Shown: positions 8,650-21,216 of the stretch, in pieces
How the letters are laid out: every line of letters begins with the position of its first letter
How positions within the stretch are numbered: the stretch's first letter is position 1
From: Bacteroidota bacterium
GTDB taxonomy: Bacteria > Bacteroidota > Bacteroidia > SXHM01
Assembly (NCBI GenBank): GCA_947479755.1
Contig: CANKAM010000026.1
Coordinates: 1-51,204 of the forward strand
Direction of reading: 5' to 3'
Length of the DNA stretch: 51,204 nt
The notes under the pieces: generated by a model
Seen by the model: only the letters and a program-made list of their open reading frames with translations
The model's database searches: none
Told to the model about the DNA's origin: nothing
Made by a program: the position numbers and the translations under genes

Positions 8650-8915
8650 CTTGGCGTGTCAGGAAATAAGGAAACACGCAACTTGATTCCCAAAACCTCA
8701 ACAAGTTGTATAGAAACGACCGTTTCTATACAATTCTACGCGCCCGGGTGGAAAGAAACAACCCACACCTATTCACCCCTTCACGTGGCTTTATATACAC
8801 TTACCCTATTTCGATGCGTATCCATACGCCAAGGTGAACGGAACAGACCGTTTCTATGCAAAGCCACGCGTCAGGGTGAGTAGAAACACCTGTTTCTATT
8901 CACCTCCTCAGCCAC
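8650..8915. repeat. Degenerate tandem array, ~42-bp period, six units
   Basis: Units carrying a core like GGTGAGTAGAAAC begin at about 8663, 8705, 8747, 8789, 8833 and 8875, a spacing of 42-44 bp. Several units contain palindromic TAGAAACGACCGTTTCTA-type arms (best at 8710-8729 and 8880-8900). The units differ by many substitutions. The open frame across it has no coding character. Confidence 0.6.
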
Positions 8916-19550: not shown

Positions 19551-20540
19551 TTATTCTTCGGCTAAGATAATCTCAATTTCGTAATTCTGCAAATTCGGAC
19601 CCTGATTTTGCACATTATAGAATGCTTTGAATTCTGCAGCAGTAAGAGTAAACGTAATTTCCTGACCGGGATTTAGCTGATGCCCCATTCCTCCCCAGCC
19701 ATCACCTGCATTATTAGCAGCATAGAAAAACAAACCGCCAATGGCAGGACCCGTTGTTGTGTTTTTGATGCGCAATGTAACACCGGCAATGTATTGCGAT
19801 ACAGTTGCATTCAGCACATTAATAACCTGACCAGAATTAACCGGACCTTCAAAAATTAAATCTACAACATCACTAATATGTCCGCGCAGGGTTTCAAGAT
19901 CAAAGAAATCTGCAATCTGCGAAGCATTATCTTTAAAATGTTGCATCAATCCGCCCAACACATAATACATTGCTCGTGCACAGTTAACGCGTTCCAGTTC
20001 CAACTCAGCACTTAGAGTATCCACCTCCCCTTCTCTTGCCTGTTGCTGATTGCGGGCAGCTACAATAAGGTTATAAAAAACCAGAATATCTGCTTTTATA
20101 AGGGCAAGCGCAGGATCAACATCAATATTGCTAAGGAGGGTAGCAAGGGCTGTAATGCGTTCGTCAATTTCCCCTTTTTGAAACGGTTCGCGCAAATCGG
20201 GAAACAGGTTAATGTATTGCGGAGTTCCTCTGCGGTATATCACTTGTATTCTGATATCAAACTCTTCAATTTTATCGCCACTCAATTGAGCAAGTAGCTG
20301 ATAAACATATTCCGTGGCGCTTCGGTAAGCAGCTTTTTTACTTTTCCACTTCACGTAAGCCGCTAAATACAAGAGGCGAAAAACGTTGAAATAAGTAAAC
20401 AATGCTAATAGCGCAGGGATTGCCTGCTGACCGAACAGCTTGCTGTCGGTGTCAGCCGAAATGATGTTCATTTTTTTGTAGCTGCCTTTCGTGCCGTTGT
20501 CGAAAGGAATTTCTGTAAACGGCCAAACTGGTGTACTCAT
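19551..20540 (-). CDS. Hypothetical protein, 329 aa
   Basis: No family recognised. There is no signal peptide. Residues 40-66 contain one hydrophobic stretch (IPALLALFTYFNVFRLLYLAAYV). Residues ~70-235 are mainly helical with charged heptad-like pieces (REGEVDTLSAELELERVNCA). Residues ~245-329 look like a beta-sandwich: NGTVSQY-like strands, then TLRIKNTTTGPAIGGLFFYA, GDGWGGMGHQLNPGQEITFT and a final strand ending EIEIILAEE. A helical part followed by a small beta-sandwich suggests a binding or structural protein. It stands alone, convergent with ffh and bordered on the other side by repeats. Coding is likely from its length, clean start and terminator. Confidence 0.65.
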   Translation of the reverse strand: MSTPVWPFTEIPFDNGTKGSYKKMNIISADTDSKLFGQQAIPALLALFTYFNVFRLLYLAAYVKWKSKKAAYRSATEYVYQLLAQLSGDKIEEFDIRIQVIYRRGTPQYINLFPDLREPFQKGEIDERITALATLLSNIDVDPALALIKADILVFYNLIVAARNQQQAREGEVDTLSAELELERVNCARAMYYVLGGLMQHFKDNASQIADFFDLETLRGHISDVVDLIFEGPVNSGQVINVLNATVSQYIAGVTLRIKNTTTGPAIGGLFFYAANNAGDGWGGMGHQLNPGQEITFTLTAAEFKAFYNVQNQGPNLQNYEIEIILAEE

Positions 20541-20672
20541 GTTTTTAATTTGTTTATTTGTTTATGTTAGAATTACAGGGTTCTGGTTAAACCTTTGCAT
20601 ATAGATGCAGGGTAGAAACAAATTCCATAAAAGTTTATGAAATTATTTTTCAGGCATCCTACTTCGGTTAAT

Positions 20673-20822
20673 GAGATCCCTCATTTCGCTGTGCTGCATT
20701 CGGGATGACAGGGCTGTAAGTTGGGGGTTGGTTTAGTGGAGGCGGGTGCGCTTTGCGTACCCGCCTCCACTAAACTCCTTCTATATAATAGCCCTGTCAT
20801 TCCGACCGAAGGGAGGAATCTC
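20673..20822. repeat. Nested palindromic element
   Basis: Outer arms GAGATCCCTC...GACAGGGCT (20673-20716) and AGCCCTGTCA...GAATCTC (20790-20822) are complementary over much of their length. Inside, a 20-bp arm starting GTTTAGTGGAGGCGGG (20731-20750) pairs with 20756-20775 with a single mismatch and a 5-base loop. The whole unit behaves like a compact mobile palindrome without coding capacity. Confidence 0.75.
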
Positions 20823-20847
20823 ATAGTGGAAGTAGTAATGAAAATTT

Positions 20848-21216
20848 CCCCAGCGTCAATCCCATCCTTCTGATTTTGGTTGGGGTTTCCCCAACATCAA
20901 TCCCATCGTTCTGCAAATGGTTGGGATTTCCCCAACGTAAATCGGAACGTTCCCCAACTCGATGGGATTTCCCCAACGTAAATCCCATCGTTCCGCAAAT
21001 GGTTGGGGTTTCCCCAACGCTAATCCGAACGTTCCAAAACTCATTGGGGTTTCCCCAACGCTAATCCCATCGTTCGGGAAATGGTTGGGGTTTTGCCAAT
21101 GATATTCGGATAAAGGAGATTAGGGTTGGGGAAATGCCAACGTTAATTGCATTGTTGGCTGAAGTGTTGGGGTTTCCCCAACGTAAACGGGAACGTTCAA
21201 GAAATGGTTGGGGAAA
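20848..21216. repeat. Tandem array of nine units with an exact 41-bp period
   Basis: Units start at 20848, 20889, 20930, 20971, 21012, 21053, 21094, 21135 and 21176, with no insertion or deletion in any unit. Each begins CCCCAACG (or TGCCAACG) and ends GGTTGGGGTTT (or GGGGAAA), so each junction is a palindrome. The middle alternates between AATCCCATCGTTC and ATCGGAACGTTCC forms. Substitutions between units are frequent. The array ends 208 bp before the GmrSD start codon. Confidence 0.88.

Follow-up and report, generated by a model that had tools for sequence, protein, structure and literature searches.

The nine-unit tandem array in the window (the whole 51,204-nucleotide stretch of DNA analyzed here) has, by our estimate, about an even chance (roughly 0.5) of being the cis array in a chromosomal system of two parts, the other part being the adjacent gene, here called gene X, with a phased dyad/stem-loop structure that would be read by the gene X product. 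Arrays of the same few periods precede most copies of this gene in the Bacteroidia genomes where it is found, even though the unit sequences of different arrays are unrelated. The features of the locus are collected in Table 1.

Table 1. Features of the array locus in the window
Feature	Position	Strand	Description
Gene X	19551..20540	minus	329 aa, uncharacterized family; array on 5' side, 304 bp before ATG
Leader/intergenic, gene X to array	20541..20847	.	
Fold-back (MITE-like) element	20671..20824	.	terminal inverted repeats ATGAGATCCCTC / GAGGAATCTCAT; abuts array
Cap sequence	20825..20847	.	..AGTAGTAATGAAAATTT; common to array copy at locus 2
Tandem array	20848..21216	.	nine 41-bp units; junctions stem-loop/dyad; TTGG-N7-CCAA core

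Results

Nine exactly spaced units in the window

The preliminary description had reported nine 41-bp repeats without an indel, and both TRF (period 41, indels 0%, score 255) and autocorrelation bear this out. The units start at 20848 + 41n, the last base is 21216, and the autocorrelation is 0.69, 0.70, and 0.67 at lags of 41, 82, and 123, respectively, with the next best lag at ≤0.41. The 82-bp peak arises because two unit types, ..AATCCCATCG.. and ..AATCCGAACG.., alternate along the array. The spacing had also been described as exactly invariant, which holds for all nine window units but not for three relatives (L119, L121, and L122), each of which has one unit of 42 bp with an extra T. The junctions read GTTGGGG-TTT-CCCCAAC or variants thereof, with TTGG and CCAA almost invariant; the palindrome previously ascribed to every junction is real, but it is imperfect at two of the eight (GGGGTTTTGCC and GGGGAAATGCC). 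Predicted folding of the array is far stronger than that of shuffled sequence (z of -6.8 and -8.5, one per strand), and in a 200-kb Markov control, zero arrays reached the scan threshold. A coding repeat was rejected because the frames are interrupted repeatedly by TAA stops and a 41-bp step is not divisible by three, and the array is noncoding as had been claimed. A known RNA was likewise rejected after an Rfam search yielded nothing near the gathering score, as was a bidirectional terminator, given that the flanking genes are divergent here and convergent at locus 2.

A further array of ~42-bp units had been placed at 8650-8915. We found merely a weak trace there, with a lag-42 score of 18, two long palindromes, and no TRF call, and this segment is perhaps a decayed array. 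Its palindromes, at 8706-8733 and 8875-8904, are perfect or near-perfect, while the 42-bp lag is weak.

The suspected link with the neighboring GmrSD gene did not survive comparison. The unit of the window array is missing beside GmrSD homologues at all 52 loci with GmrSD relatives (0/52), the syntenic array of G005 adjoins an M19 peptidase gene, and in G004 the syntenic array is followed by sequence other than GmrSD. The partner of the window array is not GmrSD but the unnamed gene at its opposite end. A 604-kb scan around GmrSD relatives found 21/42-bp arrays in one MAG only (L063, the Bacteroidota MAG Umea3_bin-1094). In this MAG, 42/21-bp arrays at L063:1944-2271 and L063:4791-5017 flank the GmrSD gene, and the scanned stretch contains no gene X relative.

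Between gene X and the array, the fold-back element has short copies dispersed in the genus, several of which adjoin gene X paralogues. When G000 and G004 are compared, there are five differences in its ~20-bp stem, all of them compensated, despite ~99% identity of the gene beside it. The cap is also present at the locus 2 copy and is therefore part of the duplicated stretch. Elsewhere in the window, the segment 12750-17750 is 100% identical to contig C83 of G004, another species of the genus, while its flanks are 90-94% identical, and judging from this comparison it has the look of a tract that recombined recently. A tract resembling it covers the C20/C109 array.

Arrays accompany gene X

Gene X (329 aa) belongs to no Pfam, NCBIfam, PHROG, or PADLOC family and has no relative in the PDB. 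Among gene X representatives, no Rep domain was found, and five of them had no transposase match in Pfam, NCBIfam, or PHROG. An AF2 model from the single sequence (pLDDT 42) was too poor to read. There are ~19 paralogues in the source genome (about 20 copies in all), and a profile search found the gene in 22/395 sampled Bacteroidia genomes representing nine genera. Both the array and the gene X protein are absent from phage and plasmid collections; a phage or plasmid origin was rejected, and the lone match to a viral contig is a chance single site.

We counted the gene X copies of G000 and G002 that have at least 400 bp on both sides (n=28) and found an upstream array at 26/28, one of them a weak 78-bp match, and a downstream array at 0/28. 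We then took and scanned 55 gene X copies from eight other families, nearly all of which have a 41- or 42-bp array 0-280 bp from the start codon. When all copies with enough flanking sequence were pooled, 70/78 had an upstream array and 6/78 a downstream one (discordant 67:3, p about 1e-16), and among the other-family loci, an array lies ≤500 bp upstream of gene X in 41/46 cases vs 6/89 for neighboring genes (p = 1.4e-22), both p-values overstating independence in that the copies share ancestry, both inside a genome and from one genome to another. The contrast of upstream with downstream and with neighbor genes does not depend on this kinship. The array typically sits about 90 bp before the gene X ATG, the two are vertically co-inherited, and the array stays 5' of the gene. 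Copies of the 396-aa subfamily, along with a few others, have no array upstream, and three of the copies that lack it carry an array just downstream. Downstream 41/42-bp arrays (93-169 bp) were seen at G188 C2, G188 C1 (1863818), and G280 C41 (loci L404, L413, and L375). Between array and ATG, the Bacteroidota -7 motif occurs in 5/68 cases, which is not above shuffles, and the full -33/-7 pattern in 3/73 vs a shuffled mean of 0.2, which is too small a number of cases to rely on.

The period is kept while unit sequences diverge

In a scan of lags 8-130, 67/70 upstream periods were 21, 41, or 42 bp; the full distribution was 42 (42 copies), 41 (17), 21 (8), and 43, 78, and 83 (1 each). Phase was coherent over three periods in every array of at least 4.5 units (62/62), and TRF on three test loci returned periods of 42, 42, and 41 with indels of 0%. 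An ungapped scan over the same lags of ~851 kb of G000 and G002 yielded noncoding arrays of 21, 41, or 42 bp or multiples of these, and in 340 kb that came almost entirely from 19 other Bacteroidia families, there was one weak lag-41 match but no clear array of 21/42. Period also follows protein subfamily within f1, with 41 bp for the MSTP-type, 42 bp for the METIW-type, 21 bp for the 403/404-aa proteins, and no array for the 396-aa proteins. On the tree of the gene X N-terminal domain, the 41/42 label requires 7 changes vs a shuffled mean of 13.8 and minimum of 9. Steps of 21, 41, or 42 bp correspond to two or four turns of B-DNA, and dozens of sequence-unrelated arrays from nine genera, all with steps of 41/42 or 21 bp, lend strong support to the proposal that it is the spacing, at about four helical turns, that is kept.

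Between arrays, unit consensus sequences are 0.43 identical, vs 0.41 after shuffling, and only 7/1,099 pairs reach 0.7, whereas neighboring units of one array are ~0.8 identical. Repeated unit conversion, which had been offered as an explanation of the constant spacing, does contribute according to this pattern of likeness inside arrays and unrelatedness between them. If conversion could also spread one-base length changes, drift of the period would be expected, but none is seen, and array phase therefore appears to be under selection or dictated by a ruler.

A common reflection pattern runs through the 41/42-bp arrays: complementarity is seen 2-7 bp out from one axis and falls off at 10-13 bp, and another axis, of lower strength, is offset by half a unit. 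Their median fold z is about -4 to -5 on both strands, compared with about 0 to -1 for column-permuted controls, while the 21-bp arrays have neither dyad nor fold signal. Compensatory pairs inside arrays number 28 vs 19.1 +/- 3.2 shuffled, a modest excess. Among 66 distinct units, positions 18/24 pair as GC in 27, CG in 26, and UA in 1; C48-type units (TTGGCAAAATGCCAA) differ from those of the window (TTGGGGTTTCCCCAA) by a paired change; and there are single units with both sides changed, one to TTGGT..ACCAA and another to GCTGGGG..CCCCAGC. Fixed steps combined with unrelated units suggest that what is preserved is spacing and base-pairing geometry rather than sequence.

Duplication and replacement within the genus

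The source genome has two further arrays of the same family as that of the window (C20 and C48), and five of the seven sampled genomes of the source genus, which is the sole genus of its order in our genome sample, together hold twelve, mostly with the 8-11 units seen among the relatives of the window array. Units of this family occur only within these twelve arrays and never singly, and 388 other Bacteroidia genomes gave no credible match. A wider spread of the unit was rejected, as the two lone matches elsewhere are not in arrays and look like chance.

At the C48 locus, an eight-unit array is common to four species in the same order. Among CCCC-type arrays at different loci, many units find their best match in the unit of the same index, and whole arrays have therefore been duplicated. 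Solo array copies occupy sites that are empty in sister species. Locus 2 has the array in G000 C20 and G004 C109, a direct gene-to-terminator junction in G002, and a 21-bp array in G006. Locus 5 has it in G002 C1, a 24-bp spacer in G004 and G006, and in G000 (C35) a different array, CCGTAACCGTTACGGCAAGACTTCGGATTGTCGGATTACCT, again of exactly 41 bp. At locus 4, three species have three different 21-bp arrays, one of which adjoins a 41-bp array. Thus, arrays are replaced in sequence but persist in period class. One 21-bp array, at L119:9329-9652 just before a 41-bp array, is an open frame with heptad-like repeats, and ORFs of this kind may be annotated as small proteins. Separately, L125:10149-10189 and L125:8391-8423 (33-41 bp) have dozens of near-identical copies across the genomes of the genus.

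Discussion

In the mechanism that we propose, the array step would be held to either four turns of the helix (41/42 bp) or two (21 bp), such that every step would present a stem-loop or dyad on the same helix face. The reader would recognize the phased structure, not the sequence, and is most likely gene X's own product, whose binding to the array would control gene X through autoregulation; the same recognition may also let the array be copied elsewhere. RAYT proteins, for comparison, are thought to copy REP sequences elsewhere. Unit conversion would keep the units of one array alike while sequences turn over fast, and selection on phase and pairing would hold the period. The hairpin itself is not universal, because the 21-bp arrays are without dyad or fold signal. 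Sequence reading, with the units as co-evolving dimer sites, is less favored than structure reading because base identity is free, whereas complementarity and phase are kept. The close link of array and gene makes the gene X product the first candidate reader; counting against it as a DNA reader, the protein has no recognized DNA-acting domain and no PDB relative. We put forward more tentatively, and at odds clearly below even, that gene X proteins read DNA geometry, control themselves, and seed array copies, and would thus form a new array-plus-protein class in Bacteroidia.

We found no description of such arrays in the open-access literature (full texts only), and several known systems are similar in part. 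REPtrons, in which REP/BIME palindromic repeats adjoin the REP-associated tyrosine transposase gene thought to act on them, likewise combine intergenic palindromic stem-loop units beside a gene with solo copies elsewhere (PMC3733652). However, gene X has no HUH tyrosine-transposase (Y1) or other domain match, and its arrays are strictly tandem and period-locked, only a few occur per genome, and every one has a unit sequence of its own. Unlike REPs, the units are not dispersed singly or in pairs in tens to hundreds, and their consensus is without a GTAG or CGTC tag. Plasmid iterons are direct repeats about two helical turns apart that precede the gene whose product binds them, and our arrays resemble them in lying upstream of a gene at integral helical turns and on one helical face. 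They differ from iterons in that gene X is chromosomal, has about 20 copies, and matches neither a Rep domain nor a plasmid, while the units diverge within an array and the predominant step spans four turns and has a dyad. Phased repeats upstream of a gene are also shared with partition centromeres (parC/ParR and tubC/TubR), where they precede an operon for a repeat-binding, autoregulating protein; in contrast, no filament or ATPase partner gene was seen beside gene X, and its many paralogous copies are chromosomal. Fast sequence turnover at a fixed unit length recalls eukaryotic satellite DNA (by analogy only), but the present arrays are bacterial, short, and tied to one gene family. Unlike CRISPR, the diverged units are contiguous without spacers, and no Cas was found among the flanking genes examined, and unlike integron attC sites, there are no cassettes between units and no integrase among those same genes.

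Whether the gene X product is the reader has to be weighed against a general protein, nucleoid-type or a global regulator, around which DNA wraps in steps of 21 bp, with the gene X members as mere targets (surface or phase-regulated proteins, for example). A sequence-tolerant, phase-sensitive binder of this sort would account for unrelated units with one period, for arrays that lie upstream at their typical distance from the ATG, and for the arrays that exist without gene X. We nevertheless consider it rather doubtful, as it leaves unexplained both the preference for gene X over its neighbors and the tracking of the protein tree by 41 vs 42 bp, and promoter-like motifs are rare between array and ATG. 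A selfish satellite, whose step is imposed by the machinery that copies it (by a ruler or by hairpin-templated slippage), gene X being its enzyme or a hitch-hiker without regulatory role, seems improbable given that the C48 locus is stable in unit number and order in four species (8 units each) and that arrays are inherited with the gene and stay 5' of it, even if empty sites, solo copies that include the common cap, and an unchanged 41-bp step with different sequence at an orthologous locus (G000 C35 vs G002 C1) would all fit such an element and hairpins could template unit copying. We give little credence to a transcribed leader of tandem hairpins that controls the gene X mRNA: the predicted folding is strong on both strands, but it is equal on both, steps of 21/41/42 are not accounted for by A-form RNA with its turn of about 11 bp, folding is absent from the 21-bp arrays, Rfam has no matching family, and the array is downstream in some copies. 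Any genome yields tandem repeats of some period, yet an ordinary, functionless VNTR is scarcely credible here, as replication slippage does not fix independent arrays at 21/41/42 bp or place them before one family, and the 340 kb from mostly other families held no clear array of this type.

A large unnamed protein family is thus marked by a nearby array of which the step is conserved and the sequence is not, and the array gives the gene X family its first functional handle. The ~70 natural arrays constitute a series for testing how a bacterial protein reads helical phase and base-pairing, and they illustrate that a tandem repeat which might readily be written off as a VNTR can constitute a defined genetic element.
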